From Branchiostoma floridae (Eukaryota; Chordata; Leptocardii; Amphioxiformes; Branchiostomatidae): a stretch of 64,000 nucleotides of DNA. The DNA lies in NCBI RefSeq assembly GCF_000003815.2, contig NC_049981.1, forward strand, positions 30,879,387-30,943,386, in the 5' to 3' direction. The notes beneath the pieces are model-generated. The model saw only the letters and a program-made list of their open reading frames with translations, searched no databases and was not told the DNA's origin. The position numbers and the translations under genes were made by a program. Every line of letters starts with the position of its first letter. Position 1 is the first letter of the stretch. This document shows positions 28,945 to 62,110 of this stretch, one piece after another.

Positions 28945-31900
28945 ATGTCTGACGTCAACATAATCAGCCTGGCAGACAAGTTACAGAACTTGGAGCTGTG
29001 CCTCAAAAGTCAGCTCAGCATAGCAGTCGGTTATGGTCGGGCTTTGAGGAAAGCCATTCTTTGCATGGATGTCTTTATGGAAGTAGAAGTCTTAAAAGGT
29101 CTTGGAGACCTGCATCTTCAGAAAGGCAAGTGGAGCAAAGATTCAACAGAGTTTGACAAGGCTGCTGCCCTATATACCGCTGCCCTACTGCGCTGCACAG
29201 ATCCAGACATGGGACAAACATTGGAACATCGCATCGGCTACATGGAGAAACTCTCTAAGAAACTACTGCAGGGGTACATTCCACACTTCCGGTGCTTGTC
29301 TCAAGACTACTGGGGTACTGCTGACAACAATATCTTAAGGGTCGCAGAAGCTTGTGACAAATTAGACAGAAGTAACGCAAAATCCCATCGTTCTGTTGAG
29401 GAGATTTACACGGAAACATTAGTGACCGCAATAGAAATCAGCGATACGTTCTTGGAGCTTGAAGTTTTAAAATCTCTTGGAGATTTCTACCTTGAGAAAG
29501 GTAGGAAAACCTCTGATTTATCCCAGTTCTCCAAGGCAACTGCCATGTACAAGAAAGCCCTGACAAGATGTGAGGATCCTGAGACCAAAACAACCCTGCA
29601 CCATCGTATCAGGTATGCAGAGAAGATCAGGGAAGCAGTCAGAAGGGTGAGTTAGATGTTTCCTAGTCCATGAACTATGAGTAGTAAGTATAATACTTCA
29701 TCTAGTCATCTGATGACGTCACAGGTTTAATACATTTGTGTCGGTGAATGGCTTTATTGAGAGACAAACTCAGAGTCTAACACTAGCAGCCCAGGGGCTG
29801 AATTGTTGTTAGACTTTACATACACGATGTTAAACTTGGCATACATATACAAATCAGCCAACGATCTGGTATACAAAATAATCTGGCATACAATAGAATA
29901 AAATATCATAATCGAATTGGTAAAAGACAAGCTAGATAAAAACTGCTCTAATTCGAGAGGACTGGTTTGAGAAAGACGTTCACACAATTAACCATTAATT
30001 ATAAAGTGGCAACAGTAGGCTTTGGTACAGTCATGAATCGTTCAACAATCGGGTCATGTGGGGAATAGCACTGTTTCTGTAGCGCTCAGTTCTGCAACGT
30101 TGCAAGTTCAGTTTCGTAGATGAACGAGTTGACCGACTGCTGATGTTCCCTCGCATGTCAGGCAGGAAGTGACGGTACAGTTCTGATGAAAGCAGAGACT
30201 TGGCAAAGTTCAGTGTCAGACTGGAACGACGTTCGTGGAGGGAGGGCAGCCGCAGGAGGGTGCACGCCTCAGAGTACGCGACGTCAGACCCCAGGATGAT
30301 GCGTCTTGTGTCTTTCAGCTTCTCACAATACACAGCAGTCAACATGCAAAAAGGAGCCTGGTTTACTACAGGTTCGGTTCAATGCAGGATACTAGTATCA
30401 TACGAAACCGTCGCAATGGTAAGAGAGTAACAAAGATATGCTGACAGTTGTCAATTAATTATCATCTTACAGCAACAAACTCTAAGATGGAGAGAAAAAG
30501 GATCCCCCATGGGGAACCAGATTGGGAACATCACAAGACCTGACATCACGCAGGGCCATCCTATCCAGCCAGACATACCAAGGTGGGGACATCCTAAACG
30601 TAGCTTCAGAGTTGAGTAAGATTATCTTTATCTTTGAAAACGTAGAACTATAATGAAACATTGTACATTTATGAATGATAATAATTCACCTCACAATAAC
30701 TCAGTTTGATAAAATCTAGCTTTTCTTTCAGTCAATACAAAGATCACCAAAAGAAAGGTGACTCCTCCCTTGCCATGGGAGACCTGGACTCAGCTGAGGA
30801 GCACTTTGCAGCTGCACTCAGGACAGTGCACATACGAGGTACGTATACAGATGAGCTCAGGAAAAAATTCTGCTCGGGACATTTTAAGAATTTCAACACA
30901 TTCCTACGTACAGACTAGAATATATGAGAATCCTGACGGTTTTTGGCAAACTAATCCAATAAAGATTAAACAAACTTACCCTTGCATGCATATTTTTTGT
31001 AACATGTTGAATACCAAAGATCAAGTAAATATCTTTTCCCAGATTCCACAGCCCAGCAGTACCAGAGAGAGGTGGAGCCCCTGTGCAAGTTGGGAGATGT
31101 CTACAGTAAGCGAGGTCAGCAGACAGGAGACGGGGGAGACTTTGTCAAAGCAGCAGCACTCTACAATGCAGCAATAGCCAGGTCTGAGGATCAATTCCTT
31201 AAGGGTAATATAACAACAACTATTGAAGAAATAGAGAAGTCTTTTATGAAATGCATTTTTAACATACATTATGATAGGGGTCTAGATGAGACGGAAAAAC
31301 ACAAGAAACAGCTGAATGAGATGCGGGACCAGATAAAGCTAGAGATGGAAACCATTGACCAGCAGCTGGACCCATATGTACATGATGAGGATGACCCATG
31401 TGTCAAAGAGATAGAGGCAAAACGAGCTCAGGCTGTCAGGAAGTTGTTTGAGACCATTGCACAACAAAGGAAGGAGTTTATAACCTTGCTTGTAGAAGAG
31501 TGTATTGGGATAATGGGTCCCCCTCCCTGTAAGTATGCCCTGATAGGTTTGGGTTCACAGGCCGCAGGACTGGTAACTCCATACTCAGACCTTGAATTTG
31601 CCATTTTGGTAGAAGAAGAAAGTGAAGAATGCCTTGTGTACTTCCGCAACCTCACCCGCTATCTACACCTCAAGGTGGTCAACCTGGGAGAAACCATTCT
31701 CCCAGCACTAGGTATAAAATCTCTCAATGACTTCTACTCTGAGGATCCTCTTGCCAACTGGTACTATGACTCTGTCACTCCTCGTGGATTTGCATTTGAT
31801 GGTTCCATGCCAAATGCAAGCAAGACTCCACTGGGCAGGCAAGGAAATGTTAATGATCAATCCAGTGAACTCATTTGCACCCCAAACAACATGGCATCCA

Positions 31901-34900
31901 TACTACTAAAGGATGTCACATTATACCTGAAGGAAGGGTATCACCTTGCCACTATCTTGAGAAACCCGTGCCTGATAACAGGAGACCAGGATGTGATTGA
32001 TACGTACAAGGACATCAGTGAGAAAATGCTGCAAGCTGATGAAGGCAAAATAACTCAACAACTGGCAAAGGAGACACAGATTGAGAACATTGAAAAATAC
32101 AAGTATAGTAATAAGGAAGCAATTATAGCAAGAATGACTGATGTAAAGAAACATCTCTATCGCTTCCCTTCTTTAGCAGTTGATTGCTTGGCCCTGTCCT
32201 CACACATTGAACCTACCACAGTTTGGGAGACAATAGAACAGATGAAAAACAAAAAAACGATTAGTCCCAATAATGCACACCACTTGACAGTGCTTACCAG
32301 CATCTCAGCAGAACTCAGGCTCAGAACCTACATTGCAAATAGTGGACAGAAGGAAAACTTTTCAGCTTTGGCCTCAATGGAAACACTACTGAGTCAAGAG
32401 GAATCATCCCCACTGACCGATGAAGAAGTACAACAAAAAGCACCGAAAACAGTTTTTCATCTACCTAATGAAAAACAGCTTTTCAGATATTATTATACAG
32501 CTTTACCTCTTGAAGCTGCTTTGTCTAATTGGTCTGGAGAGAATGCAGACATACAATCATTCCCAGATTTTTATGATAATTCTCCAAGAATACGAGGTCT
32601 GATGTACCTTGGGTTGTGCAAACATAGGTTGGCTATCAGCTACCTTCATGAGGCCCTTAACACAGCTGAGGGAAGTGACACTACAAAAATCATGTCTGAT
32701 ATTGGAGAAGCTAGTAATGAAATTGGTGATTATCACCAAGCTGTCAGATACTATGAACAGGTACTAACGATACATAAAAAGACCCATGGACAGAGTATTG
32801 CACATCCTAACATTGCCAAAGCACTCAACAGTCTTGGGGTAGCCTGGACTCACCTAGGTGAACACAGAAAAGCAATCAGCTACCTGGAAGAGGCGCTAGA
32901 GATGAGGAAGAGACTATATGGTCAGAGTACAGCACATCCTGACATTGCATCGTCACTGAACAACCTGGGGATAGTGTGGCAATCGGAAGGTGATTATAGA
33001 AAAGCAATCAGATACCAAGAACAGGCGCTAGAGATATGGAAAATTACTTATGGCCAGACTACAGTGCATCCTGACATTGCCAAACTACTCAACAACATGG
33101 GTGCAGCCTGGTACAATGTAGGTGATTACAGGAAAGCAATCAGATACTATGAACTGGCACTACAAGTGGGTAGGAAGTTCTATGGTGAGACGTCAGCACA
33201 TCCTCACATTGCTACATTACTCAACAGCCTGGGTGGTGCCTGGCGTGACCTGAGTGAATACAGGAAAGCAGTTAGCTACTTTGAACACACACTACATATG
33301 CAAAGGAACATCTTTGGTCAGCAAACGGCACATCCTGACATTGCTAAAGTACTCAACAACCTGGGTGTAGTCTGGAGTCACCTGGGTGAACGCAGGAAAG
33401 CAATTAGCTACCAAGAAAAGGCACTGCAGATGTACAGGAGAATATATGGTCCACATACAGTACACCCTGGCGTTGCACAATCACTCAACAACATTGGAAC
33501 AGCCTTGTACTATCTGGGTGATTACAGGAAAGCAATCAGCTATCATGAACAAGCGCTAGAGATGAAGAGGAGTATCTATGGCCAGACTAAAGCACATCCT
33601 GACATTGCCAATATTCTCAACAACCTGGGTGGAGCCTGGTGTCATCTGGGTAAACGTAGGAGAGCAGTTAACTACTATGAACAGGCACTACAAATATACA
33701 GGAGTATCCATGGTCCGCAAACAGTACATCCTGACATTGCAGAATCACTTAGCAATCTGGGGACAGTGTATAGTCAAATATGTGATTACATGAAAGCAAT
33801 CGCCTTCTTTGAACAGGCACTTAACATGTTTCGGATTATCTACGGTCAGAGTACAGCACATCCCAAAATTGCTGCAGTACTCAACAACATTGGGGGAGTC
33901 TGGAGTGAACTAGGAGATTACAAAAAAACACTCAGCTACTATGAACAGGCACTGCAAATGAAAGAAAACATCTATGGTCAAGGTACAGCACATGTTGACA
34001 TAGCATTGTCCCTTAACAACATTGGGTCAGTTCTCTCGAAATATTTGGGTGAGTCTAAAAAAGCAATCAGCTACTTTGATAGGGCACTGCAGATAATAAG
34101 AGGGGTCTATGGGCAGAGTACAACACATCCTGACATTGCCACATTACTGAGCAATCTGGGTGCAGCCTGGGCTGAACTGGGTGAACACAGGAGAGCAGTT
34201 AGCTACCATGAACAGGCACTAGAGATGAGAAGGAGTATCTACGGTCCGCATACTCCACATGCTGACATTGCAGAATCACTCAACAACCTGGGGACAGCAT
34301 GGAATAAAAAAGGTGATTCCAGGAAAGCAATCATCTACCATGAACAGGCACTTGAAATGTATAAAAGTTTCCATGGTCGGACTAATGCACATCCGGACAT
34401 TGCCAACTCACTCACCAACCTGGGAAGAGCCTTAAATGACCTTGGTGAACACAGTAGAGCAGTTAGCTGCCATGAACAGGCACTAGAGATGAGAAGGAGC
34501 ATCTATGGTCAGCAAACAGCACATCCTCACATTGCCAGCTCACTCAGCACCCTGGGGATAGCCTGGTACCATCTGGGGGATTACAGGAAAGCAATAAGCT
34601 ACCATGAACAGGCACTACAAATGAATAGGAATATCTATGGTCAGGGGACAGCACATCACCAGATTGCCAGCTCACTTGACCACCTTGGGGTAGCCTGGGG
34701 ACATCTGGGTCAACATTGGAAAGCAGTTAGCTACCATGAACCGGCATTACAGATGTACAGGAGTGTCTATGGTCAGAGTACAGCACATCCTGACATTACT
34801 TCATCACTCAACAACCTGGGGTTAGCTTGGCTTTGTCTTGGTGATGTCAGGAAAGCAATCAGCTACCATGAACAGGCACTTGAAATGTCCAGAACTGTCT

Positions 34901-35370
34901 TCGGTCAAACTAAAGCACATCCGCTGGTTGCCGCATTACTGAACAGCCTGGCTGAAGACTGGTGTCAACTGGGTGATCACAAGAGAGAGGTTAGCTACCA
35001 GGAACAGGCACTGCAGATGTTAAGGAATATCTATGGTCAGAGGACACCACATCCTCAGATTGCTACATTACTCAACAACCTGGGTGTAACCTGGAGTAAA
35101 CTTGGGGAACACAGGAAAGCAATTAGCTTCCATGAACAGGCACTACAGATGAGGAGGAGTATCTATGGTCCGCAAACAGCACATCCTGACATTGTCACAT
35201 CACTTAATAACTTTGGTACAGTTTCGTACAAACTGGGGGATTTCAGGGCAGCTAAGAGAACCTTTTTAGAAGCCATGGCTATGGCAAAACAAGTCTATTC
35301 TCAGGACCAAAATCATCCAATGATTAAAGGAATTGAAAGGAACCTTGCCAAGTGTAGTATCGGAAAATGA
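28945..35370 (+). CDS. NT1: nucleotidyltransferase-fold TPR protein, 1748 aa
   Basis: Exons 28945-29646, 30473-30582, 30732-30838 and 31043-35370 join to 5247 nt (1749 codons, TGA stop). The start ATG (ACAAAGATGTCT) is chosen because MSD is shared by all paralogues. Domains: two copies of a ~65-residue helical module (EVLKxLGDxxLxKG ... AAAxYxxAL) in exon 1; a TPR-like piece (KKGDSSLA...EEHFAAAL); a third module copy; a charged helix ([16 protein letters not shown]); a nucleotidyltransferase core near residues 470-565 with GS at 477-478, D489, E491 (SDLEF) and D559 (FAFDGSMP); a helical bridge; then 20 TPR units of 44 residues. The core fits the NTase pattern G[GS]...Dh[DE]h and recalls GlnD/GlnE enzymes by its distal D..MP...PLGR. 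Substrate unknown; no signal peptide or membrane helix, so probably cytosolic. First of four tandem paralogues. Confidence 0.85.
29745..30320 (-). mobile_element. LINE retrotransposon fragment (3' end) in NT1 intron
   Basis: The minus strand encodes [39 protein letters not shown] and [20 protein letters not shown]. These are the typical C-terminus of invertebrate LINE reverse transcriptase proteins. It is followed by a 3' tail ending CAATAAAGCCATTCACC. It is 5' truncated, hence inactive. Confidence 0.85.
31543..31800 (+). other. NT1 nucleotidyltransferase core motif region
   Basis: Codons for [19 protein letters not shown] run from 31543, with GS at 31552-31557, D at 31588-31590 and E at 31594-31596. 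The distal FAFDGSMP aspartate is at 31798-31800. The spacing of ten residues between GS and DxE fits the NTase-fold family. Confidence 0.75.
32803..35313 (+). repeat. NT1 TPR array: 19 full units after a divergent first unit
   Basis: 2511 nt, that is 837 residues: eighteen units of 44 and one of 45, each beginning HPxIAxxLNNLGxAW and ending YGQxTA. Odd and even units tend to alternate [10 protein letters not shown] and [10 protein letters not shown]. The last four units resemble the last four of NT3. Confidence 0.93.
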
Positions 35371-39547: not shown

Positions 39548-39795
39548 ATAAGCCTTCTCACATTAGTTAGGACGCATGTGCGGCGATAGGAATTCTGGGT
39601 GATATGTCAAAAGGTAAGGCACACAAAAAGTAAACAAAACCCGTCTGGACGTTGTTATNNNNNNNNNNNNNNNNNNNNNNNNNNNNNNNNNNNNNNNNNN
39701 NNNNNNNNNNNNNNNNNNNNNNNNNNNNNNNNNNNNNNNNNNNNNNNNNNNNNNNNNNGCCGCACATGCGCTCTAACTAATGTGAGAAGGCTTAT
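39548..39795. mobile_element. MITE with long inverted arms, copy 2, containing an assembly gap
   Basis: Left arm ATAAGCCTTCTCACATTAGT ... GTGCGGCGATAGGAATTCT; right arm GCCGCACATGCG ... ACTAATGTGAGAAGGCTTAT. Same family as 35905-36136. The 100 N at 39659-39758 replace its centre, so its true length is unknown. Confidence 0.75.
39659..39758. other. Assembly gap (100 N)
   Basis: Exactly 100 N. The flanks are the two arms of a palindromic element, a likely cause of the assembly break. Confidence 0.98.
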
Positions 39796-40303: not shown

Positions 40304-43300
40304 ATGTCTGACATCAATATGACCAGCCTGACAGAAAGGTTACAGGACTTGGAGTTATGCCTCAAGTGTCAGCACAGCCAAAAAGTCGGCTATGGGCGAG
40401 CACTCAGAGAAGCCATTCTCCGTATGGATCTCGTTATGGAAATAGAAGTCTTAAAAAGTCTTGGAGACCTGCATCTTAAGAAAGGCAAGAGGGGCAAAGA
40501 TTCAGCAGAGTTTGACAAGGCTGCTGCCCTGTATGCCGCTGCCCAACTACGCTGCACAGATCCAGACATGGGACAAACACTGGAACATCGTATCGGCTAC
40601 ATGGAGAAACTCTCCAGACAACTGCTGCAGGGGTACACTCCACACTTCCGGTGGTTGTCACCAGACTACTGGGGTACTGCTGACGGTAATGTCTTAAGGG
40701 TGGCAGAAATTTGTGATCAGTTAGACAGAGGTAACACAGAATTCCAACATTCTGTTGATGAGACTTACACAGAAACATTAGTGACATCAATAGGAAATGG
40801 TGACATGTTCTTGGAGCTTGAGATTTTAAAATCTCTTGGAGATTTCTACCTTGGAAAAGGAAAGGAAACCTTTGATCTATCCCAGTTCTCCAAGGCAGCT
40901 GCCATGTACGGCAAGGCCCTGAGAAGATGTGAGGATCCTGGTACCAAGCAGACTCTGCACCATCGTGTCCTGTACATGGTGAGGATCTGGGGAGCAGTGA
41001 GAAGGGTGAGTAGTAAGAGCTTTCCTTCTCAATGCAAAGCTCTCATTGTACATGTACATGATTATAACACACACAACCAGTGCACATGCAAAGCATTTAT
41101 GACATCCTTTAGAGACCCCAAAACGAATGAGGGGGCATAGAAGTCCAGCCAAAAATGCTGCTGCTACGATTTGCTGCTAACAAACTGAACACCAGAGAAT
41201 TTACTTAGTATTTGATCCGCTCGCACCAGGAGGTTTAACTAACTCTTCAGTGTAGTGGGTTTACATGTACATGTATTAAAAAAACATGTAAATGGCAAAG
41301 TGCTGGGTAAAAAACGATGGTAATTGTGGATTACTTCCCTACAGTCAACATGGAACATTTCAAGACAAACAGAAAGAAGATCGCCCATGAAGCATCAGTT
41401 TGGGAACATCACAAGAGCTGAAGTTACTGAGGACCATCCTATCCATCAAGGCACAGCAAGGTGGGAATACTTTATGATTAGCTTCAAAAGTGGTGTGCTG
41501 ATTTGGTCTGTGCTCGGAGGATTTGTTTTCTGGATGGGTATTTGTTGTTCTTCTGTACCGGTACCTGCAGTTATTACTGTCAGTCGAGTGTCAGGACGTG
41601 AGTAGAAAGATGGCGTCACTGCAAAGGTCAGACTCGTAGGAATGACAGGAAGTATAGCTCAGAGGTGATGCATCTACTTGTGTATCAGACATTCTAGGTC
41701 AAGGGGTCAATGCTACTAATTTACAGTGTATTTTTGCACTGTTTGTATTTTTGCACTTCAATAATTTCTATTGACGTTAAGCATAATCAATAAACAACAA
41801 TCATACAAGACATACGAAGAAACTTTTAAAGATTCGCGGAAGCATAAGGTCTTCAGATTCTTGTTAGGTTTAAAAAGATTGCATTATGATAAAGATTAAA
41901 ATGATGATGATACACAATGTAAATCGCATCTCTAAACCCAACCTACTAGTACTTAGTCATTCTCCTTTTTTCAGTCAGTATCAAGACCACCTTAAGAAAG
42001 GTGAAGCCTCCCTTGCCAGGGCAGACCTGGACTCAGCTGAGGAGCACTTTGCAGCTGCACTCAAGTCAGTACACATGCCAGGTATGGATGAACACAGGAA
42101 AACATTGTGCTTGGAACATTAAATATCTCAAAACATTGACAGTACAGGACTAATGAAGACAAAATTATAAAAGTTTTATTAAATCTTTCAAAACATTGAC
42201 AGTACAGGACTAATGAAAACAAAATTATAAAAGTTTCATTAAATCTTTCAAAATATTGACATTACAGGACTAATGAAAATCCTGACAAAAATAAAATTAT
42301 AAAGATTTACTTTAATAGAAAACAGAATCCAACAAAGAGAAACTTAAAAGAGATAAACCTTCTAAAATGTTCTATACCAAATATCATGTAACCCAGTATG
42401 TTTCTCCCAGATCCCACAGCCCAGCAGTACCAGAGAGAGGTGGAGCCCCTGTGCATGTTGGGGGTTGTCTACAGTAAGCGAGGTCAGCAGACAGGAGACG
42501 GGGGAGACTTTGTCAAGGCAGCAGCACTCTACAATGCAGCAATAGCCAGGTCAGAGGATCATGTCCTCAGGGGTAAAATAGCAACAGATATTGAAGAAGT
42601 AAATAAGTCATTTCTCAAATTTATCTTCGATATTGATTATACTGTAAGCCCAGAGAACACACAAAACCACAAGAAACAGCTGAAGGAGATGCGGGACCAG
42701 ATCAAGCTGGAGATGGAAACCATTGACCAGCAGCTGGATCCCTATGTACATGATGAGGATGACCCATGTGTCAAAGAGATAGAGGCAAAACGAGCTCAGG
42801 CTGTTCGGAAGTTGTTTGAGAACATTGCACAACAAAGGAAGGAGTTCATAAGCCTGCTTGTAGAAGAGTGTATTGGGTTAATGGGTCATTCTCCCTGTAA
42901 GTATGCCCTGATAGGTTTGGGTTCACAGGCTACAGGATTGGTAACTCCATATTCAGACCTGGAGTTTGCCATTTTGGTAGAAGAAGAAAGTCAAGAAAGT
43001 CTTCTGTATTTCCGCAACCTCACCCACTACCTACACCTCAAGGTGGTCAACCTGGGAGAAACCATTCTCCCAGCACTAGGTATAAAATCTCTCAATGACT
43101 TCTACTCTGAGTATCCCCTTAACAATTGGTACTATGACTCTGTTACACCACGTGGGTTTGCATTTGATGGCTCCATGCCAAAGGCAAGCAAGACTCCATT
43201 GGGCAGACAGGAAACCTTAATCGAACAGTCCAGTGAACTCATCTGCACCCCAAACAACATGGTTTCAGTACTTCTAAGGGATGTCACACTGTACCTGAAG

Positions 43301-46300
43301 GAAGGATATCACCTTGCCACTATCTTGAGGAACCCATGTCTGATAGCAGGGGACCAGAATTTAATTGACATATATATGAGCATTACAGAGAAGATATTGC
43401 AAGCTGATGGGGGTAAAATTTCTCAACAACTGGCACATGAAACACTGAGAGAAAATCTTAAAAACTACAGAGCTGAAGAAACAATAACAGCAAGATTAAT
43501 TGATGTGAAGAAAGAACTCTATCGCTTCCCAGCAGTAGCAGTGGACTGCTTAGCACTGTCTGCAGGCATCATACCTACCACAGTTTGGGAGACAATAGAA
43601 GATATGAAAAAGAAAGTAATCAGTCCCAACAATGCACACCACTTGACAGTGCTTACCAGCATCTCAGCAGAACTCAGGCTGAGGACGTACATTGCAAATG
43701 GTGGACAGAGGGAGAACTTTTCAGCCTTGACCTCAATGGAAACAATTCTAAATGAAGACGAACCATCCCTACAGGTCAATGAAGAAGTGAAAATAAGTGC
43801 TCTGAAACCAGTTTTTCATTTGCCAAATGAAAAACAGCTTTTGAGATACTATAAAACATCAGTTCCTCTTAAATCTGCTTTGTCTAGATGGTCTGGAAAG
43901 AATCAAGACCTACAGCCATTCTCTGATTTCTATGATAATTCTCCAAGAGTACGAGGACTGATGTACCATGAGTTATGCAAATATAGGCTGGCTATTGGCT
44001 ACTACCAAGAGGCTCTCAACTCAACTGATGGAACTGACACTGATGATACCATACAGCTGCTCAACTATATTGGAAACGCTAGTTTCACGATTGGTGATCA
44101 TTATGATGCTATCGGCTACTATGAACATGCCCTACGTATGTGTAGGAGTATCTATGGTCAGACTACGGCACATCCTCTCATTGCCACATTTCTGAACAAC
44201 CTGGGCGCAACCTGCAACCGTCTGGGGGACCAAAGGAGAGCTGTTAACTACCATGAACAGTCACTAGAGCTGTACAGGAGTATCTATGGCCAGCAAACAG
44301 CAAATGCTGATATTGCCGGATTACTCAACAACCTGGCTGAAGCCTGGCACAACCTGGGTGAACACAAAACAGCGGTCAGCTACAATGAACAGGCATTGCA
44401 GATGAAAAGGAGTATCTATGGTCCAAAAACAGCACACCCTGACATTGTTATATCACTTTGCAACTTGGGACAGGCCTGGCAGTATTTGGGTGATCATAGA
44501 AAAGCAATAAGCTACTATGAACAGGCACTCAAAATGTTCAGAAGCGTCTATGGTCAGACAACAGCACATCCTCAAATTGCAGTATTACTAAACAACCTGG
44601 GGTCAGCTTGGCGTAATCTGGGTAAACACAGGAGAGCAGTCAGCTACCATGAACTGGCACTGCAAATGAGAAGGAATATATATGGTCCGCAAACAGCACA
44701 TCCTCACATCGCCCAATCACTAAACAACCTGGGCATAGCCTGGGGCAGCCTGGGTGAGCACAGGAAAGTACTTAGCTACCATGAACAGGCACTACAAATG
44801 TACATTGATATATATGGTGCACAGAAAGCGCATCCTCTTGTTGCTACTTCACTCAACAACCTGGGTAAAGCGTGGGAGGATCTGGGTGAATACAGGAGAG
44901 CAATTAGCTACTATGAACAGGCACTACAAATGTACAGGGGCATTTATGGTCAGCAAACAGCACACCCTAACATTGCCATATCACTTTATAACCTGGGGAC
45001 AGCCTGGTACCATTTGGGTGATTGCAGGAAAGCAATTGGCTACAATGAACAGGCATTTAGACTGTTCAGAAGTGTCTATGGTCAGACTACAGCACATCCT
45101 CAGATTGCCTCATTACTCAACAACCTGGGTGAATCCTGGAATCGCCTGGGTGAACATAGGAAAGCAGTTAGCTACCATGAGCAGGCACTACAGATGCACA
45201 GGAGCAACTATGATCAGCAAACAGCACGTCCTGTAATTGCCAACTCACTCAAGAACCTGGGTGGAACCTGGTGTGAGCTGGGTGATTATAGGAAAGCAAT
45301 CAGCTACTATGAACAGGCGCTTCAAGAAAATGTGAGGATCTATGGTGAGACTTCATCGCATCCTCACATTGCCACAGTACTAAACAGCCTCGGTAAAACC
45401 TGGTACGATGAAGGTGATCAGAAAAAAGCAATCAGCTACTATGAGCAGGCACTTCAGATGTACAGAGATATCTATGCTTCACAAAAAGCACATCCTGAAA
45501 TTGCCACATCACTCAACAAACTGGGTGAAGCCTGGGCTAATCTGGGTGAACACAGGAAAGCAGTTAGCTACCATGAACAGGCACTACAGATGTACAAAAG
45601 TATCTATGGTCAGCAAACAGCACACCCTAACATTCCCATATCACTCTACAACCTTGGCACAGCCTGGTACCATCTGGATGAGTACAGGAAAGCAATAGGC
45701 TACTATGAACAGGCACTCAAAATGTTCAGAAGTGTCTATGGTGAGACTACAGCACATCCTCAGATTGCAGCATTACTCAACAACCTGGGTGAAGCCTGGG
45801 ATCGCTTGGGTGAACACATGAGAGCAATTAGCTACCATGAACAGACACTGCAAATGTACAGGAGTATCTATGGTCAACAAACGGCACATCCTGACATCGC
45901 CTTATCCCTTTTAAATATAGGGACCTCACTGAACTGTCGGGGTGATTACAGAACAGCAATCAACCACTATGAGCAGGCACTCAAAATGTTCAAAACTGTC
46001 TATGGTCAGACTAAAGCACATCCTATGGTTGGAATATCACTCAACAACCTGGGTGGAGCCTGGAGTCACTTGGGTGAGCACAGGAAAGCAGTTAGCTACC
46101 ACGAACAGGCACTAGAGATGTACAGGAGTATCTATGGTCCGCAAACAGCACATGCTGACATTGCCTTGTCACTCAACAACCTGGGTGGAACCTGGCGTGA
46201 GATTGGTGATTACCGGAAATCAATCTGCTACTATGAACAGGCACTAAAAGTAAATTTGAAGATATATGGTGATACTTCAGCGCATCCTCACGTTGCCACA

Positions 46301-47014
46301 GCACTAACTAGTCTGGGGAAAGCCTTGCAGGATGCAGGGGATCACAGAGCAGCGATCAGTTACTGTGAACAGGCACTTCACATGTATAAAGTGGTCTATG
46401 GTAAAGCTACAGCACATCCTGACATTGCTACAGTACTGAACAGCCTAGGTGCAGCCTGGGATGATCTGGGTGAACACAGGAGCGCAGTTAGCTACCATGA
46501 ACAGGCACTAGAGATGAGAAGGGGTATCTACGGTCAGAAAACGGCACATCCTGACATTGCTTCATCGCTAAACAACCTAGGAGCAGCTTGGAATCGTGAA
46601 GGTAATTACAAGAAAGCCATCAGCTACTATGAACAGGCGCTACAGATGTTCAGGAGTATCCATGCTCAGACTACAGCACATCCACACACAATAGCTACAA
46701 TACTGAACAACCTGGGTTCAGTCTGTACGAGCCTGGGTGAACACAGGAGAGCAGTTAGCTACAATGAACAGGCACTGCAGATGTACAGGAGTATCTATGG
46801 TCAACAAATGGCACATCCTAACATTGCCAAATCACTTCACAACCAGGGAATAGCTTTGTACAGACTTGGAGATATAAAAGCAGCTATCAGAGCCGTCGAA
46901 GAAGCCTTGGCAATGGCAAAGCAAATCTATCCCGAGGACAACAATCATCCATTGATAAAAGCATTTGAAAGTAACCTCGCCCAAATAAGTGCGGTATCTG
47001 CAGATGACATATGA
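40304..47014 (+). CDS. NT2: nucleotidyltransferase-fold TPR protein, 1842 aa
   Basis: Exons 40304-41005, 41345-41460, 41975-42081 and 42411-47014 join to 5529 nt (1843 codons, TGA). The start ATG is the MSD codon shared by the family. Same order as NT1: two helical modules, TPR-like exon pair, third module, linker helix, NTase core (GS at about 479-480, D491, E493, D561), helical bridge ([20 protein letters not shown]) and 22 TPR units, the longest array seen here. Units 5-8 and 10-13 correspond pairwise, as do 9-10 and 16-17, so the array grew by block duplication. The tail ends [10 protein letters not shown]. The 60-bp tandem repeats at 42120-42310 lie in its third coding intron. Intact by sequence; substrate and partners unknown. 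Confidence 0.87.
42120..42310. repeat. 60-bp tandem repeat, three copies, in NT2 intron
   Basis: CAAAACATTGACAGTACAGG, ACTAATGAAAACAAAATTAT and AAAAGTTTCATTAAATCTTT repeat about three times with few changes. Confidence 0.9.
44171..46945 (+). repeat. NT2 TPR array: 21 full units after a divergent first unit
   Basis: 2775 nt, 925 residues: twenty units of 44 and one of 45. [13 protein letters not shown] marks units 7 and 12 and identifies a five-unit (about 660 bp) block duplication. Confidence 0.93.
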
Positions 47015-50302: not shown

Positions 50303-53300
50303 ATGTCTGACAACAGAGTGACCAGCTTGGCAGACAAGTTACAGAACTTGGAGCTGGGTCTCAAGAGTCACCACAGACAAGAAGTAGGCTATGGTCGATC
50401 ACTGAGAGAAGCTATACTTAGCATGGATGTCTTTATGGAGGTAGAAATCTTAAAAGGCCTTGGAGATCTGCATCTTCAGAAAGGCAAGTGTGGCAAAGAC
50501 TCGACAGAGATTGATAAGGCTGCTGCCCTGTATGCTGCTGCCCTATTGCGCTGCACAGATCCAGACATGGGACAAACAATAGAACATCGTATCGGCTACA
50601 TGGAGAAACTCTCCAGACAACTGCTGCAGGGGTACACTCCACACTTCCGGTGGTTGTCACCAGACTACTGGGGTACAGCATACAGCAATGTCTTAAGGGT
50701 CGCAGAAATTTGTGGCAAATTAGACAATGGTAATACAGAATCCAAGGATTCTGTTATGGAGACTTACATAGAAACCTTAGTGACTGCAACAGAAAATGGC
50801 GACATGTTCTTGGAGCTTGAAGTTTTGAAAACTCTTGGGGATCTCTACATTGAGAAAGGCAGGAAAACCTTTGATGTATCCCAATTCCCCAAGGCAGCTG
50901 CTATGTACAAGAAAGCCCTGACAAGATGTGAGGATCCTGAGACAAAAATAACTCTGCACCATCGTATCTGTTACACAGAGAAGACCAGGGAAGCAGTGAG
51001 GAGGGTGAGTAGTTAGGGGCTTCCTTGTCTATTAACCACACACATACATATAGCTAGTTAGGACACCTTTTCTACTTTTTTTAACGACACCACATGTACA
51101 AGTAGATAACTGTATGCCTTTTAATAATGGATATGCAAATGTAATAACGTGTGTAGAGACCTGCACATCAATAATCAGTGTACATGCAAAAATATGTCGG
51201 GGCTGGGTATATTGCAATGAGGTATAGGCATACAATATCCTTGGTTACTATATACAAAAGTATGTGGATGGAAAGAGTGGGTGATGAAAACAAGCTGATG
51301 ATTGTGAATTCAATCTTGCAGCAATCAACATCAAAGAAACGAAGACGGACAGGAAGAGGACCACCCATGGACCAGTCAAGGCAGTACACAGAACACTTGA
51401 AGGAAGGTGACTCCTCCCTTGCCAGGGCAGACCTGGACTTAGCAGAGCAGCACTTTGCAGCTGCACTCAAGACAGTACACAATCAAGGTATGGTAAACAG
51501 CCATCCTGGTTTTGAACTTTGGGGGTAAATAATAGTTGCCATATTACCTATGCAAATAAACAAGTACGACAATATCACAGGACTTATGGAATGTCATTAA
51601 ATTATACTTTCTGGCAAATAGGATGCAGTATGCCTACTGTTAAACGTATTCATTGTGGATTTAAAATGCCTATTTCCCTGGAATACATAACAATACTGTA
51701 TACCCCCGGTTCTTTCGTGATCATAGCACATGGCCTTGCTGTAGATTATTAAAAACTAAGATCATATGACAAAATATTTCCAATTTCATATTTGCTTTTC
51801 CCCAGATCCCACAGCCCAGCAGTACCAGAGAGAAGTGGAGCCCCTGTGCAAGTTGGGGAGGTCTACAGTAAGCGAGGTCAGCAGACAAGAGACGGGGGAG
51901 ACTTTGTCAAAGCAGCAGCTCTCTACAATGCAGCAATAGCCAGGTCAGAGGATCAAGTCCTCAATGGTAACATAGATAGAGCTATTAAAGAAGTAAATAA
52001 GTCATTCCTCAAATATATCTTCGATATCCATTGTAATACAAGTAAAGAAAACACAGAAAAACACAAAAAGCAGCTGAAGGAGATGCGGGACCAAATAAAG
52101 CTGGAGATAGAAACCATTGACCAGCAGCTGGATCCCTATGTACATGATGAGGACCCATGTGTTAGAGAGATAGAGGCAAAACGAGCTCAGGCCGTCAGGC
52201 TCTTGTTTGAGAACATTGCACAACAAAGGAAGGAGTTCATTAGCCTACTTGTAGATGAGTGTATTAGGTTAATGGGTTCCCCTCCCTGTAAGTATGCCCT
52301 GATAGGTTTGGGTTCACAGGCCATAGGACTGGTAACTCCATACTCAGACCTGGAGTTTGCCATCTTAGTAGAGGACGAAAGTGAAGCATGTCGTGTGTAT
52401 TTCCGAAAGTTCACACACTATCTACACCTCAAGGTGGTCAACCTGGGAGAAACCATTCTCCCAACACTGGGAATAAAATCTCTCAATGACTTCTACTCCG
52501 AGAACCCATTTGCCAATTGGTACTATGACTCTGTCACACCTCGTGGATTTGCATTTGATGGGTCCATGCCAAAGGCAAGCAAGACTCCATTGGGCAGGGA
52601 AGGAACTGCAAATGAGCAATCCAGTGAACTCATCTGCACCCCAAACAACATGGCATCCATACTACAAAATGATGTCACATTATACCTGAAAGAAGGGTAT
52701 CATCTTGCAACTATCTTGAGAAACCCATGCCTGATAGAAGGGGATCAAGGTTTGATCGACACGTACATGGCCATTACAGAAATGATACTGCAAGCTGGTG
52801 AGTGTAAAATTTCTCAACAACTGGCACAGGAGACACAAGAGGAGAACATCAGAAACTACATGTACAATGATAAGGAAACAATAACAGCAAGGCTGATTGA
52901 TGTTAAGAAAAATGTCTATCGCTTCCCAGCTTTAGCAGTTGATTGCTTGGCCCTGTCCTCGCAGATCAAACCCACCACAGTTTGGAAGATGATAGAACAG
53001 TTGAAAAACAAACAAGTGATCAGTCCTAACAATGCACACCACCTGACAGTGCTTACCAGCATCTCAGCAGAACTCAGGCTCAGGACGTACATTGCAAATG
53101 GTGGACAAAGGGAAAACCTGTCAGCTTTGGTATCGATGGAAACAATGCTAAACAAACTGGAATCAATTCCTGAGGAAGTATATGCAAATACACTAAAGCC
53201 AGTTTTTCATTTATCAAATGAAAAACAGCTTTTCAGGTACTATCATACAGCAGTTCCTCTTAAATCTGCTTTGTCTAAATGGTCTGGAAGAAATACAGAT

Positions 53301-54554
53301 CTGCAGCCATTTTATGATTTCTATGATAATTCTCCAAGAGTGCAAGGGCTGATGTACTTTGAGTTATGCAAATACAGACAGGCTATCAGCTACTACCAAG
53401 AGGCCCTTGAGGCAGGTGATGGAACTAACACTGAGGATAATATGCTACTGCTCTTTTATATTGGAACTGCTAATCTTGAGGTGGGTCATTATCAAAAAGC
53501 TATCAACTACGTTGAACAGGCAGTAAAGATGCATGGAAAAATCCCTGGACAGAGTACACCACATTCTAACATTACAGCAATGCTTAACAATTTGAGTTCA
53601 GCCTGTTCCTATTTGGGAGATCATAGGAAATCAATCAACTTCTGTAAACAGGCGCTAGAGATGAGCTTCAGTATCTATGGTCAGACTACAGCACATCCTT
53701 CTATTGTCGCATCCCTCAACAACCTGGGTGGAGCCTGCTTATACGAAGGTGATTACAGGAAAGCAATCAGCTACCATGAACAGGCACTACAGGTAAATAG
53801 GAGGATCTATGGCGAGACTACAGCACATCCTGGCAATGCTATATTACTGACCAACCTGGGGTCAGTCTGGAATCATCTGGGTAACTACAACAGAGCTGTT
53901 GCCTACCATGAACAGGCACTACAGATGAGAAGGAATGTATATGGTCAGAGTACAGCACACCCTGACATTGCCACATCACTCAACAACCTGGGGACAGCCT
54001 GGCAGCAACTGGGAGATGTCAGGAATGCAATCAGCTACCATGAACAGGCACTTGAAATGTCCAGAAGTGTCTTCGGTCAAGCTAAACCACATCCGCTGGT
54101 TGCCGCATTACTGAACAACCTGGCTGAAGACTTTTGTCATCTGGGTGAACACAGGAAAGAGGTTAGCTACCAAGAGCAGTCACTACAGATGTTCAGGAAT
54201 ATCTATGGTCAGAAGACAGCACACCCTCAGATTGCCATATTACTCAACAACCTGGGAGTAACATGGAATAAGCTGGGTAAACACAGGAAAGCACTTAGCT
54301 ACCATGAACAGGCATTACAGATGAGGAGGAGTATCTATGGCCCGCAAACTGCACATCCAGAAACTGCCTCATCTCTCAACAACTTGGGTACAGTTTTGTG
54401 CAAACTGGGAGATTTCAAGGCAGCTAATAGTAACTTATTAGAAGCCTTCAATATGATGAAGCAAATCTATCCTGAAGACCTAGATCATCCAATGATAAAA
54501 TCAATTAAAAGGAACCTTGTCAAAATAAGTATAGCATCCGGAAAAGGCAAATGA
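50303..54554 (+). pseudogene. NT3: nucleotidyltransferase-TPR paralogue with a one-base deletion
   Basis: Exons 50303-51004, 51322-51487 and 51806-54554 total 3617 nt, one base short of a whole frame. Near 51853-51861 the copy reads TTGGGGAGGTCTAC where NT4 has TTGGGGGATGTCTAC. From the spliced start the frame then meets a stop within about 35 codons. Downstream the NTase core ([15 protein letters not shown]) and eight TPR units are fully open to 54554. So the break is recent, a sequencing or assembly error, or bypassed by another start. The second exon is a single 166-nt exon, unlike the split exon of NT1 and NT2. It also lacks one Asp of HDEDDPC. The last four TPR units match those of NT1. 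Confidence 0.7.
53562..54485 (+). repeat. NT3 TPR array: seven full units after a divergent first unit
   Basis: 924 nt, exactly seven units of 44 residues, the shortest array of the cluster. Confidence 0.93.
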
Positions 54555-56625: not shown

Positions 56626-56859
56626 ACAAGCATTTGTAAAAGCTACGTATACGCATATGTGTATATGGGAACATATTACAGTGTCAAGTGACAAACGCAA
56701 TCATTACATTAAATGAGAACTGTGACGAGGAAGGGGGGGGGGGGGGTTGGCAGCAGCTGCTACAGTACAAAGTAGAACCAACAAGTCAGAATTGTTTTGA
56801 GGAAGGTGAGAGAAGGTCTCCAAAACGCAGGATACTTGGTTGTGTACAAAGAACTTATC

Positions 56860-57098
56860 CAATGAGGTAATAAGTAATCTATCATACCACGTCATGGTTT
56901 CCTCGGTCATGAGACTAACTGCTGACTTAGTGGAAAGTCCCGGCAGTTGTACAGGAACAGAAACACCAACAGAAACAGAAACACCAACAGAAACAGAACA
57001 GAGTCAGAGGGAAAACCCCAGAACTTTTGCCAGTAGAGGGAGATATAAGCAAGTCTCTACCCTGATGGGGTCACAGCTGTGGAGTGTCAGACATCCAG
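56860..57098 (+). promoter_or_regulatory. NT4 upstream module 2 and non-coding first exon
   Basis: Exact GGAAAGTCCC at 56932-56941; ISRE-like GAAACAGAAAC at 56972-56982 inside a short GAAACA repeat; first-exon text GCAAGTCTCTACC, TCACAGCTGTGGAG; end ACATCCAG/GTGAG with GT at 57099. The most complete module of the cluster and the likely NT4 promoter and first exon. Confidence 0.6.
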
Positions 57099-57562
57099 GT
57101 GAGGTTCATCTTGTCGCGGTACAGGCGGTATATAAAGGTTTGCAAAGACGTGTGTTTGTGTTGTGGACTCTGGACTGCTGGAGTATATTATTCAGTGCAC
57201 AAATATTCCTAGTCAAGTTAATTTCTTTCGTATGTGCTTAATTACACATTGCTTATGACTATAATGTTTAATTTAATATGTATTTACGAGGGAGATGTTA
57301 TAATTGAAGTTTAAGAATAAGACAGTATCTTCATGTATAGGAGAAATGAGGTATTTTAGGGCCTCTTTCCCCTATATATTTAATCATAAGTATTTTAGGG
57401 CCACCATCCCCTAACATGTTGCATTGCCTAAAGAATAGAGTCATGAAAAAGCTAGGTTTCAAAACGAAATCGTATGCTTGTTTTTCCAAATGCATGTGTC
57501 TCAAAGTAATATTACTGTCTCTCCTTCATTTAAAGGTTGGTCATTGGAGTTAAGATAGGAAC

Positions 57563-60500
57563 ATGTCTGACATCAATATGCCCAGCCTGGCAGGCAAGTT
57601 ACAGGACTTAGAGCTGGGCCTCAAGACTGAGGACAAAAAAGGCTATGGTCAGGCACTGAGAGAAGCTATATCTTGTGTGGATAACTTTATGGAAGTAGAA
57701 ATCTTGAAAAGTATTGGAGACCTGCATCTCCAGGAAGGCAAGCAGAGCAAAGATTCAGCAGACTTTGACAAGGCTGCTGCCGTTTATGCTGCTGCCCTAC
57801 TACGCTGCACAGATCCAGACATGGGACAAACACTGGAACATCGTATCGGCTACATGGAGAAACTCTCCAGTAAACTGCTGCAAGGATACACTCCACACTT
57901 CCGGTGGTTGTCACCAGACTACAGGGGTACAGGTGATAGCAATGTCTTAAGGGTGGCAGATATGTGTGACAAATTAGATAGAAGTAAAACAGAATCCCAG
58001 CATTCTGTTGAGGAGACTTACACAGAAACATTAGTGACCGCAATAGAAAACAGCGATACGTTTTTGGAGGTCGAGGTTTTGAAATCTCTTGGAGATTTCT
58101 ACCTTGAGCAAGGCAAGAAAACGTATGACTTATCCCAGTTCCCCAAGGCAGCTGCCATGTACAAGAAAGCCCTGACAAGATGTGAGGATTCTGAGACAAA
58201 CCCAACCCTGCACCATCGCATCAGTTATGCAGAGAAGATCAGAGAAGCAGTGAGAAAGGTGAGTAGTTAGAGCTTTCTATTGAGCATCACATAGTAAATA
58301 TAACGTTATTTCAGCTAATATGACATCACATATACAGGTAGTTTCGTGTATGCCTTTGAATCATAAAATGTACACGATAAAGTGTGTGTATAAAGCCCTA
58401 CACATCCCTTAGTGTACATGCAATAATACATGTGGGGGGGGGGGGGTCTTGTTGGATATTACAAAAATGTTTTAGGCCTATAACCTTTCATATTATAAAA
58501 AAGGTTTGGGATTAAATCTTGCAGCAATCAACATCGAAAAAACCCAGGCAGAGAGGAAGAAGACCATCCACGTCAAAGCAGTACGAAGAACATTTGAAGA
58601 AAGGTGACTCCTCCCTTGCCAGGGTACACCTGGACTCAGCAGAGCAGCACTTTGCAGCTGCACTCAAGACAGTACACAAACAAGGTAAAGGAAACTTTCT
58701 TTTATGCTTAAAAAATTGTTGGCAAACAGTTGACCTAGTTTAAACTTTGGTGACAAAGAATTCCAAAATTAGGAAATGCCTTGAATATCTATGCAAATAA
58801 AATAAACTAAAGCAAATAAGCAGTATTGCAGTATAGAGTACTACAATATTCCAGGGACTTATCAAATGTATAACTAAAGTTTAGTAGACGGCAACCAGGA
58901 TGCAAGATGTTGATTTTAAACGTATTCATTGGGTGTAAAGAAAAGCCTTTCCTCCTTGGATAAAGTTTAACAGTACATCCCCGGTTCATGGTTATAGTAA
59001 ATGGTCTTGCTGTAGATAATTTCAAAGGAACAATATGACAAACATTAACTTCCCTTTCCCCCAGACCCCACAGCCCAGCAGTACCAGAGAGAGGTGGAGC
59101 CCCTGTGCAGGTTGGGGGATGTCTACAGTAAGCGAGGTCAGCAAACAGGAGACGGGGGAGACTTTGTCAAAGCAGCAGCACTCTACAATGCAGCAATAGC
59201 CAGGTCAGAGGATCAAGGCCTCAATGGTAACATAGATAGAGCTATTGAAGAAGTAAATAAGTCTTTCCTCAAATGTATTTTAGATATTCATTGTAATGTA
59301 AATCAAGAAAACACAGAAAAACACAAGCAACAGCTGAAGGAGATGCGGGACCAGATCAAGCTGGAAATGGAAACCATTGACCAGCAGCTGGATCCCTATA
59401 AATATGATGAGGATGACCCATGTGTCAGAGAGATAGAGGCAAAACGAGCTCATGCTATCAGGAAGATGTTTGAGAACATTGCACTACAAAGGAAGGAGTT
59501 CATCAGCCTTCTTGTAGAAGAGTGTATTGGGTTATTGGGTCCCCCTCCCTGTAAGTATGCCCTGATAGGTTTGGGTTCACAGGCCACAGGACTGGTAACT
59601 CCATACTCAGACCTAGAGTTTGCCATTTTGGTAGAAAGTGAAAAATGTCTTGTGTATTACCGGAACTTCACCCACTATCTTCACCTCAAGGTCGCCAACC
59701 TGGGAGAAACCATTCTCCCAGCACTTGGAATAAAATCTCTTAATGACTTCTACTCAGAAAACCCACTAGACAACTGGTACTATGACTCTGTTACACCTCG
59801 TGGGTTTGCATTTGATGGTTCCATGCCAAAAGCAAGCAAGACTCCACTGGGTAGGCAGGGAAGTGAACTCATCTGCACCCCAAGCAACATGGTTTCAAAA
59901 CTACAAAAGGATGTCACATTGTACTTGAAGGAAGGGTATAACCTTGCCACCATCTTGAGAAACCCATGTCTGATAGCAGGAGACCAGGGTTTGATCAACG
60001 CATACATGGATATCACAGGGAAGGCACTACAAGCTGATGGGGGTAAAATAGCTCAAGAACTGGCACAGGGGATGCTAAGAGAAAATCATCAGGTGGGATT
60101 AATCACAGCAAGGATGATTGATGTGAAGAAAAAACTCTATCGCTTTCCGGCTGTGGCAGTGGATTGCTTGGCGCTTTCCTCATCCATTGTACCTACCACA
60201 GTTTGGGAGACAATTGCAGAAATGAAAAACCAAAAAGTGATCAGTCCCAACAATGCACACCACTTGACAGTGGTAAGCAGCATCTCAGCAGAACTCAGGC
60301 TTAGAACATACATTGCAAATGGTGGACAGAAGGAAAGCTTGTCAGCTTTGGCATCAATGGAAACAGTGCTGCTTGAGCAGGAATCATCCCTACAGATCAA
60401 TGAAGAGGTAGAAGCAAATGCACTGAAAACAGTTTTTCATTTACCAAATGTAAAACAGCTTTCCAGATACTATCATACGATCGTACCTCTGAAACTTATT

Positions 60501-62110
60501 TTGTCTAAGTGGTCTGGAAAGAATCCAGATCTAAAGTCAGTCTCTGATTTCTATAATAATTCTCCCTTTGTACAAGGACTGATGTACGGTGAGATATGCA
60601 AACACAGACAGGCTATTAGCTACCTTCACGAAGCCCTTCATCAGTCAATGGTTCAAACTGACACTGAAGGGATTATGATGGTGCTTAACATTATTGGAAA
60701 TGTTAGTCGCAGAGCAGGTGATCATCACAAAGCTATTTATTACTTTGAAGAAGCACTTAGAATGAATGGCAAAATCTGTGGACAGAGCACGACAGACTCT
60801 AACATTAAATCCTCAATCAGCACCCTAGGTATAGCGATACTTAGAAACTTGGGTTTATCTTGGAGCAGCCTTGACGATCATAAGAAAGCAATCAGCTACT
60901 GTGAACAGGCACTAGAGATGTGCAAGTTTATCTATGGTCAAAGTACAGCTCATCCTGACATGACTTCAACACTAAACAACTTGGGATTGGCATGGCATCG
61001 TAAAGGTGACAACAGGAAAGCAATCAGCTACTATGAACAGGCACTACAATTGGATAAGCGGATCTATGGTGAGAATACAGCACATCCTACCATTGCTACA
61101 GTATTGAACAACCTGGGTGGGTCCTGGGCTTCCATGAATAATCACAGGACAGCAGTTACCTACCTTGAACAGGCAATACAGATGACAAGGAATGTCTATG
61201 GTCAGCATACAGCACATCCTGACATTGCCAACTCACTTCACAACTTGGGGTCATCTTGGCACTATCTGGGTGATGACAGAAAAGCCATCAGCTACAATGA
61301 ACAGGCACTACAGATTTTCAGGAGTATCCATGGTTCACAAACTGAACATCCTGACATTGCCTCAGCACTGACCAGCTTAGGTGGATCCTGGGGTAAATTG
61401 GGTGAACATAGGAGAGCTATTAGCTACCATGAACAGGCACTGCAAATGTCTAGGAATATTTATGGTCAGCAAACAGCACATTCTAACAGCAAACGTCTTA
61501 TTTGTATGACTTTTNNNNNNNNNNNNNNNNNNNNNNNNNNNNNNNNNNNNNNNNNNNNNNNNNNNNNNNNNNNNNNNNNNNNNNNNNNNNNNNNNNNNNN
61601 NNNNNNNNNNNNNNGATGAGATCGAGTATCTATGGAGAGGATCCAGCACATCCAGACATTTCAAACTCACTAAATAATTTTGCAATGGTTTGTCAGCAGC
61701 ACTTACGTGATAGCAAACAAGCTCTCAGTTACTTGAACAGGGCAATGCAGATGTCCAGAAGTATTTATGGACAGAGACATCATTTCATTGCTACACTTCT
61801 TAACAACCTGGGTGAAACCTGGGGTAAACTCGGTGAACACAAGAGAGCAGTTAACTACCACGAACAGGCACTACAGATGAGAAGGAGTATCTATGGGCTG
61901 CAAACAGCACATCGAGATATTGCCATGTCACTCAACAACTTGGGATTGGGTTTGTTAAAACTGGGAGATCGCAGGGCAGCTCATAGCGTCCTCTCAGAAG
62001 CCTTGGCAATGGCAAAGCAAGTCTATCCTCAGGACCAAAATCATCCAATGATAAAAACAATTGAAAAGAACCTTGCCAAAACCAGTGTTGTATCTGAATA
62101 TGAAACATGA
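57563..62110 (+). CDS. NT4: nucleotidyltransferase-fold TPR protein, interrupted by assembly gap
   Basis: Exons 57563-58258, 58525-58684 and 59065-62110 (with 100 N at 61515-61614). The start [19 protein letters not shown] is shared by the family. Order: two helical modules; a basic TPR exon ([13 protein letters not shown] then KKGDSSLA); a third module; linker; NTase core with [19 protein letters not shown] and [11 protein letters not shown]; bridge; at least nine TPR units. The second unit is longer, with a repeated-looking insert ([15 protein letters not shown]). Just before the gap the frame leaves the TPR consensus (SKRLICMTF), so the gap edge is suspect. After it the array resumes and ends [10 protein letters not shown]. 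The second coding exon is unsplit, as in NT3. The true length cannot be given. Confidence 0.8.
60795..62041 (+). repeat. NT4 TPR array, broken by the gap
   Basis: Five clear units before the gap (the first enlarged), a corrupted sixth, then about three full units after it, all on the HPxIAxxLNNLG plan. The unit number is a minimum. Confidence 0.85.
61515..61614. other. Assembly gap (100 N) inside NT4 coding sequence
   Basis: Exactly 100 N. The frames before and after are not in register, as expected for a gap of arbitrary length. Confidence 0.98.

Follow-up and report, generated by a model that had tools for sequence, protein, structure and literature searches.

The arrangement of a DUF294 domain followed by C-terminal TPRs is already known from bacteria. 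In the NEX2 proteins of Neochlamydia, as described in the available parts of Domman et al. 2014 (PMC4209131), DUF294 lies in the middle of the protein and is followed by many C-terminal TPRs; 50 such proteins with a variable number of repeats are recorded, and their N-terminus mostly carries an F-box, with ten members also possessing an OTU domain. Among characterized nucleotidyltransferases (NTases), DrrA acts as an AMPylase and carries a G-x11-D/E-x-D/E motif according to the accessible portions of reviews, and MntA is stated, in the excerpts at hand, to adenylylate HepT. Expansion of TPR genes by tandem duplication is likewise on record, with hundreds of coral TPR-CHAT genes (276 and 304) bearing arrays of variable length, according to the accessible sections of PMC12314368.

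The window, by which we mean the entire stretch of 64,000 nucleotides of Branchiostoma floridae DNA that was analysed, contains four head-to-tail paralogues on the + strand, each built of the same three exons (Table 1). In all four genes, exon 1 encodes two helical TPR-like modules and exon 2 a single TPR (copies at about 30751, 41994, 51400 and 58597), followed in exon 3 by a third helical module, the NTase, a helical domain and an array of 44-residue TPRs. The other copies of exon 1 are 74-78% identical to that of gene 1, the third N-terminal module copy is 40-46% identical to exon 1 (E 0.002-0.003), and over the NTase region gene 2 shares 81-82% identity with genes 1, 3 and 4. The GS-x10-DxE motif is present in every gene, and a fifth copy lies ~18 kb past the window end (C3:30961219). 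Coordinates, alignments and repeats thus uphold what had been read from the sequence alone as to the four tandem paralogues, their module order, the triplicated module, the 44-residue period and the motif. The exon joins proposed in the same reading stand for gene 2, the sole gene to read through under a common GT-AG model (1802 aa), but not for the other three, which are damaged or incomplete under that model: gene 1 is without the exon-2 acceptor AG present in its paralogues, gene 3 loses its frame near the start of exon 3, where its length differs by one base, and a 100-N gap interrupts exon 3 of gene 4. A search with Rfam returned nothing at gathering score.

Table 1. Coordinates of the four NTase-TPR paralogues, numbered from the first letter of the window.
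Feature	Position	Strand	Remarks
Gene 1 exon 1	28945..29646	+	two helical TPR-like module copies; GT donor at 29647
Gene 1 exon 2 region	30732..30838	+	one TPR unit; acceptor AG missing, splicing uncertain
Gene 1 exon 3	31043..35370	+	third helical module, NTase, helical domain, bridge, TPR array
Gene 1 NTase, helical domain and bridge	31300..32583	+	81% identical to gene 2
Gene 1 NTase motif	about 31546-31596	+	
Gene 2 exon 1	40304..41005	+	
Gene 2 exon 2	41979..42081	+	TPR unit
Gene 2 exon 3	42411..47014	+	full three-exon model open
Gene 2 NTase, helical domain and bridge	42668..43942	+	
Gene 2 TPR array	44115..46848	+	132-nt (44-aa) period; ~20.7 copies by TRF; 23 units by profile
Gene 3 exon 1	50303..51004	+	
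Gene 3 exon 2	51385..51487	+	
Gene 3 exon 3	51806..54554	+	frame broken near start; 9 TPR units scored
Gene 3 NTase and helical domain	52062..53333	+	DUF294 26.9 bits (cut-off 21)
Gene 4 exon 1	57563..58258	+	
Gene 4 exon 2	58582..58684	+	
Gene 4 exon 3	59065..62110	+	N run 61515-61614 inside
Gene 4 NTase, helical domain and bridge	59322..60563	+	

The four genes belong to a far larger family. NTase matches were found at no fewer than 207 loci in the lancelet genome, a number that excludes chance as the source of the pattern and supports the suspected expansion of the family. Neighboring family loci lie on the same strand in 73 of 77 pairs, and 42 of 47 core frames match a TPR profile; the lancelet family thus joins an NTase to a long, variable TPR tail in most copies examined. 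DUF294 was matched at least 119 times across the genome, always over cut-off (150 of 262 candidates were scored), with gene 3 alone among the window's four entering this list at E<=0.001. Tandem TPR expansion is common to the lancelet and the coral, but the partner domain is CHAT in coral TPR-CHAT genes and an NTase here, as far as the accessible sections of PMC12314368 extend.

The NTase-fold core proposed for these genes is borne out at the level of profiles. Pfam DUF294 (PF03445) exceeds its cut-off in gene 3 and was matched by all ten amphioxus cores and all 11 mixed cores scanned. At E<=0.1, SidM_N was matched by 6/10 amphioxus and 10/11 mixed cores and the substrate-binding domain DUF294_C by 5/10 and 10/11, respectively; DUF294_C scored 22.1 in gene 3 against a cut-off of 22.5 and surpassed it in a chlamydial relative (L084, 26.0). 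With a joint amphioxus/chlamydial profile, the best solved structure was DrrA/SidM (E=1e-8), collinear over both the NTase and the subsequent helical domain; the G-x11-D/E-x-D/E motif and helical domain of the SidM/DrrA ATase are both found. An amphioxus-only profile also placed DrrA first, at a non-significant E=0.03, with the MNT antitoxin third of three (E=0.64). Homology therefore establishes the window genes as predicted DUF294/SidM-like nucleotidyltransferases of the pol-beta superfamily. They are nevertheless distinct from DrrA, whose GEF and PI4P-binding domains, as given in the accessible source text, are missing from the Pfam matches of gene 3. SidM_N stays just below its cut-off of 27 (26.1 in L060) and is missing from the gene 3 list. 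Furthermore, we know of no TPR arrays in DrrA, such as the lancelet proteins possess. GlnD/GlnE and DUF294 proteins share the DUF294 match over cut-off and the pairing of a pol-beta NTase with a helical domain; GlnD, however, carries HD and ACT domains, neither of which appears when the Pfam matches of gene 3 are listed in full. Two further matches were noted: NCBIfam FxSxx_TPR (462.9 bits against 300) sits on the TPR repeats and was not taken as identity, and PADLOC returned generic or candidate models at E 9.3e-6 to 0.035. The reading that we favor, to which we would give an even chance, is that of an enzyme whose diversifying TPR tail picks the proteins that are to receive a nucleotide, plausibly in immunity.

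A second-messenger synthase of the OAS/cGAS/CD-NTase kind, with the TPR tail as ligand sensor and the NTase as source of a signalling nucleotide, is an unlikely alternative. The cGAS-like receptors and Mab-21 belong to the same superfamily, marine invertebrates have large families of OAS/cGAS/CD-NTase-like receptors, and the sensor-plus-NTase layout is suggestive. However, a genome-wide search with Mab-21 (PF03281) gave 12 matches, none of them at the loci in question, and no Mab-21, OAS or CD-NTase model appears among the 6 and 19 Pfam families listed for the ten amphioxus and 11 mixed cores. Among solved structures the nearest are DrrA, an AMPylase of proteins, and the antitoxin MNT. Membership of the OAS/cGAS class, to which the sequence-only reading had likened the fold, is not supported by these searches and was rejected.

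It is also improbable, in our view, that the fold is an inactive platform for TPR recognition. A pseudoenzyme or scaffold would be in keeping with a third carboxylate that is not established, the position aligned with Asp249, an acidic residue in the helical part of DrrA (numbering inferred from the motif), being non-acidic in the profile alignment, and with two exceptions among 67 amphioxus and chlamydial rows (L012, which reads DLN, and L086, which is without the D). Against this, 66 of these rows retain the motif D and 66 the E, across two domains of life, and G and S occur in all 67. Moreover, the NTase evolves under constraint (dN/dS 0.24), most strongly in the motif block, whose value of 0.17 is the lowest of five blocks measured (435 pairs, 30 paralogues).

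The TPR array behaves differently from this nearly invariant catalytic motif. Entropy peaks at canonical TPR positions 12, 2, 9 and 13, where dN/dS reaches 1.16-3.08, with an interval that excludes 1 in the closest 10 pairs only, as compared with 0.31-0.51 for exposed helix B and 0.18-0.55 for the core. Pairs were picked on columns other than those measured, and not by low synonymous difference, because such picking inflates dN/dS. At a threshold of 0.85 the concave set (1.51) was exceeded by the highest random column set (1.66), and loop columns 39-42 also have a dN/dS near 1. Adding position 5, which we take to be ligand-facing as well, to the concave set gave 0.90, 0.98 and 1.37, and 5.02 for 7 pairs. 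The tail is thus as variable as had been supposed, its variation being concentrated at positions that would, by analogy with canonical TPRs, face the ligand.

This pattern bears on neutral or selfish birth and death, that is, expansion with no repertoire function, which we likewise consider unlikely. The lesion or gap in three of the four window genes and the tandem grouping of loci would fit such a process, as would the abundant presence-absence variation of lancelet genomes reported in the accessible part of PMC12373286. On the other side, 100 of 102 NTase matches and 117 of 119 DUF294 matches are free of stop codons, the NTase is under purifying selection, and change is raised at the putative ligand-facing TPR positions.

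All bacterial relatives found are from Chlamydiota (32/232 genomes) and include F-box–DUF294–TPR proteins. Strong matches include a copy in a Parachlamydiaceae genome (E=9.6e-89) and one on plasmid pS13 of Neochlamydia sp. S13 (1.1e-79). The amphioxus and NEX2 proteins agree in having DUF294 and then C-terminal TPRs, but the former have introns and TPR-like N-terminal modules whereas the latter, as far as the accessible text of PMC4209131 goes, mostly start with an F-box. No F-box occurs in the complete Pfam lists of the exon-1 proteins P0005 and P0006 or of gene 3. Chlamydial TPR units are 42-43 aa where measured, as against 44 aa in the lancelet. The amphioxus/chlamydiae tree is unrooted, drawn with a midpoint for display only, includes one animal and flagged long branches, and its bootstrap is not settled. 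Searches of phages gave no family match, and of 16 stretches in viral_contigs fitting a short pattern none was confirmed, so a phage or viral origin was rejected. The claim of an undescribed architecture must be narrowed: the combination itself is published for NEX2, in so far as that source was available, and the animal family appears new to the literature searched, in which no paper on it was found. Kinship with chlamydial proteins hints at what may be an undescribed target-tagging, perhaps immune, system in the lancelet.

How might an enzyme that tags selected proteins operate? The NTase and the next helical domain would form one catalytic unit, from which a protein picked by the long C-terminal TPR superhelix would receive a nucleoside monophosphate, AMP being the likeliest, on a hydroxyl side chain; the N-terminal TPR-like modules would offer a second interaction or regulatory surface. 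Tandem duplication would multiply copies in which the catalytic unit is kept and the target-facing TPR residues diversify, resembling a recognition repertoire, plausibly immune. We infer the activity, nucleotide, substrate and immune role of the lancelet proteins; DUF294 relatives are able to modify other substrates, which counts against protein AMPylation. Very improbable is a small-molecule or metabolic NTase (aminoglycoside-NTase-like) that uses its TPRs as a scaffold and has expanded in response to diet or xenobiotics: NTP_transf_2 and Polbeta models are also weakly matched in the scans of the 10 and 11 cores and related C-terminal helical domains are known in such enzymes (accessible part of PMC3710099), but the diversity lies in the TPRs, which usually bind protein, the best structural match is DrrA, and two of five chlamydial relatives scanned have F-box domains.

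It is tempting to speculate further, albeit on a scenario that we regard as rather doubtful, that at least 200 loci constitute an undescribed intracellular recognition system in which a SidM-like enzyme, guided by diversifying TPR tails, nucleotidylylates proteins of microbes or of the host, using a catalytic-TPR module exchanged with Chlamydiae. If true, hosts and intracellular bacteria would hold opposing arsenals of one enzyme. With its many loci, conserved pol-beta active site and diversifying binding tail, the family would be a candidate for a third kind of animal protein AMPylase, in addition to Fic and SelO. Because the family is akin to chlamydial TPR proteins, an exchange between animals and intracellular bacteria can be put directly to the test. 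In the lancelet, an early-branching chordate, the NTase-TPR family may represent a candidate repertoire for innate recognition.

The genes in the window join a conserved pol-β-type nucleotidyltransferase (NTase) and helical domain to tetratricopeptide repeat (TPR) arrays. All four lie on the forward strand and share one plan, in which a first exon of approximately 234 aa carries two helical modules, a short second exon codes for a single TPR, and a long third exon runs through a third module, the NTase, the helical domain and a bridge into the array. Under a single GT-AG model, gene 2 reads through without a stop for 1802 aa. Gene 1 is without the exon 2 acceptor AG present in its paralogues, exon 3 of gene 3 is broken early by a one-base difference, and the gene 4 model meets a 100-N gap. 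For these three reasons it would be too generous to count all four genes as intact, although the modules and their order are real. The best stretch of the FxSxx_TPR match falls within the TPR array, and an automatic pipeline could therefore misname these genes. The inverted repeat listed in the table may be a mobile element located where the assembly has a gap.

Coordinates of features in the window and of one cluster elsewhere in the genome
Feature	Location	Details
Four same-strand NTase-TPR genes	28945-62110	
Open frame	14477-15013	178 aa, partly of low complexity; without a Pfam match at E<=0.01
Inverted repeat	39548-39795	37 nt, 95% complementary, flanking the N run
N run	39659-39758	
Tandem repeat, intron 2 of gene 2	42117-42279	60-nt unit, 2.7 copies
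NCBIfam FxSxx_TPR match	42392-47014	462.9 against a cut-off of 300
Mab-21 (cGAS-like) cluster	contig C5:7517474-7612845	7 matches within ~95 kb

Profile comparison upheld the assignment of the core to the NTases. In gene 3, DUF294 scored 26.9 bits against a Pfam cut-off of 21, and DUF294_C fell just below its cut-off (22.1 against 22.5); in the Pfam scan of gene 2, the matches listed comprised 25 of 37 families. At E<=0.1, ten amphioxus cores matched DUF294 (10/10), SidM_N (6/10) and DUF294_C (5/10), and eleven mixed cores (eight chlamydial, three amphioxus) matched them in 11, 10 and 10 cases, respectively. DUF294_C has been placed with the C-terminal domains of GlnD/GlnE in the HEPN superfamily, according to the accessible text of PMC3710099. 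Against solved structures, the best match of the mixed profile was the protein AMPylase DrrA (6yx5_B, E=1e-8), aligned over two collinear stretches corresponding to the NTase and helical domain; the second and third chains were again DrrA (E=0.0016 and 0.0042). The amphioxus-only profile placed DrrA weakly at ranks 1 and 2 (E=0.03 and 0.08), followed by the MNT antitoxin (E=0.64), which was the sole match in a single-sequence search (E=0.19).

The G, S and D of the GS-x10-DxE motif are invariant in 47 amphioxus cores, and the E is present in 46; with 20 chlamydial cores added, G and S are found in 67/67 and D and E each in 66/67. Four acids of DrrA, Asp110, Asp112, Asp150 and Asp249, are named in the accessible part of a review. 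Asp110 and Asp112 correspond to D97 and E99 here. In the mixed-profile structure alignment Asp249 falls on a non-acidic position, a point against exact equivalence with DrrA. Its position alone makes E131, kept in all 67 rows, a candidate for the third carboxylate.

Relatives were found among the Chlamydiota. The plasmid search returned a single record, Neochlamydia sp. S13 pS13, matched at 11 places (E=5e-46), or 12 when an alignment served as query. Two loci, both in one Parachlamydiaceae MAG, came from the genome-contig search, a scan that depends on short conserved patterns and may miss relatives in other phyla. In a survey of 232 Chlamydiota genomes, 32 matched at E<=1e-10, in some cases by the NTase stretch alone; phages and viral contigs gave no matches. 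Among the five chlamydial proteins put through the domain scan, L063 and L087 read F-box–DUF294–TPR, and L084 carries DUF294, DUF294_C and TPRs. The Neochlamydia NEX2 family comprises F-box, DUF294 and TPR, and the members tested had a functional secretion signal in a heterologous assay (Domman et al. 2014, PMC4209131, accessible text). L064 and L075, from one Parachlamydiaceae genome, are DUF294-TPR proteins with an N-terminal methyltransferase-like domain (below cut-off in L075); NEX2, by contrast, mostly begins with an F-box, and this other type goes without mention in the accessible part of its description (PMC4209131). An unrooted tree splits 47 amphioxus from 20 chlamydial rows by one branch (100/99). 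In the divergent amphioxus copies L015, L059 and L060 the NTase motif is nearer the chlamydial ones; L015 also has an acidic, possibly UIM-like N-terminus.

The family is very large and has grown in tandem. The union of genome searches with four different queries (150 of 262, 99 of 320, 114 of 316 and 111 of 312 candidates scored) gave at least 207 NTase loci on 26 contigs, with 173 of the first 189 on contigs C1-C19. Neighbours less than 30 kb apart group 116 of these loci, and within the groups both neighbours have the same orientation in 73 of 77 pairs. Rows without a stop numbered 117 of 119 with the first query and 100 of 102 with the second. Frame lengths with the second query ranged from 480 to 1987 aa (99 frames, median 1125), those crossing N runs being possibly overlong. 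A TPR profile matched 42 of the 47 core frames with sequence in hand at E<=0.001, the exceptions being L012, L016, L023, L033 and L055, and exon 1 alone as query gave at least 153 genome matches (150 of 600 candidates scored). A Mab-21 profile matched 12 places in the genome (513,431,437 bases, 431 contigs), none of them at the window genes. The group on contig C5, six of whose matches are loci L003-L008, is apparently a separate tandem NTase cluster.

The TPR arrays vary in length and in their ligand-facing residues. Across 30 paralogues (435 pairs), the NTase had a dN/dS of 0.24, the motif block 0.17, the helical part 0.30 and the bridge 0.46. Of 61 frames entered, 42 (two being gene 4 pieces) gave 294 TPR units, most variable at positions 14, 4, 11, 15, 33 and 1. 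Of these six, 14, 4, 11 and 15 correspond respectively to positions 12, 2, 9 and 13 of the canonical TPR, where they face the ligand. With pairs picked on the remaining columns, dN/dS at these concave positions rose with similarity through 1.16 (203 pairs), 1.26 (129), 1.59 (35) and 3.08 (10), the bootstrap interval excluding 1 only in the 10-pair set. By the same measure, exposed helix B had 0.31-0.51 and the core 0.18-0.55. Random four-column sets, 60 at each of three thresholds, had medians of 0.24-0.44 and 95% points of 0.85-1.10; at threshold 0.85 the top random set (1.66) exceeded the concave set (1.51). For loop columns 39-42 the two lower thresholds yielded 0.97 and 1.00; for unit position 33 they yielded 1.41 and 4.26. 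Such values lend support to, and are not proof of, diversifying selection on ligand-facing positions, because the concave positions were also picked by variability in the same data. The arrays turn over: the nearest unit lies within the same gene for 17/23 units of gene 2, 3/18 of gene 1 and 0/9 of gene 3, although gene 1 units 15-17 still match gene 3 units 6-8 in order.

No description of an animal DUF294-TPR family was found in the accessible text of the literature searched, mostly without subscription papers. A study of immunity genes in the lancelet pangenome (PMC12373286) uses none of the terms TPR, tetratricopeptide, nucleotidyltransferase, uridylyl and DUF in its main text. Fic and SelO are the only metazoan AMPylases in the accessible part of a 2021 review. 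By analogy with DrrA, MntA and GlnE, the NTase would modify a protein and the TPRs would choose that protein. Together with the chlamydial link, the expanded TPR-CHAT genes of corals (PMC12314368, accessible text) suggest, again by analogy, that the family may have an immune role.
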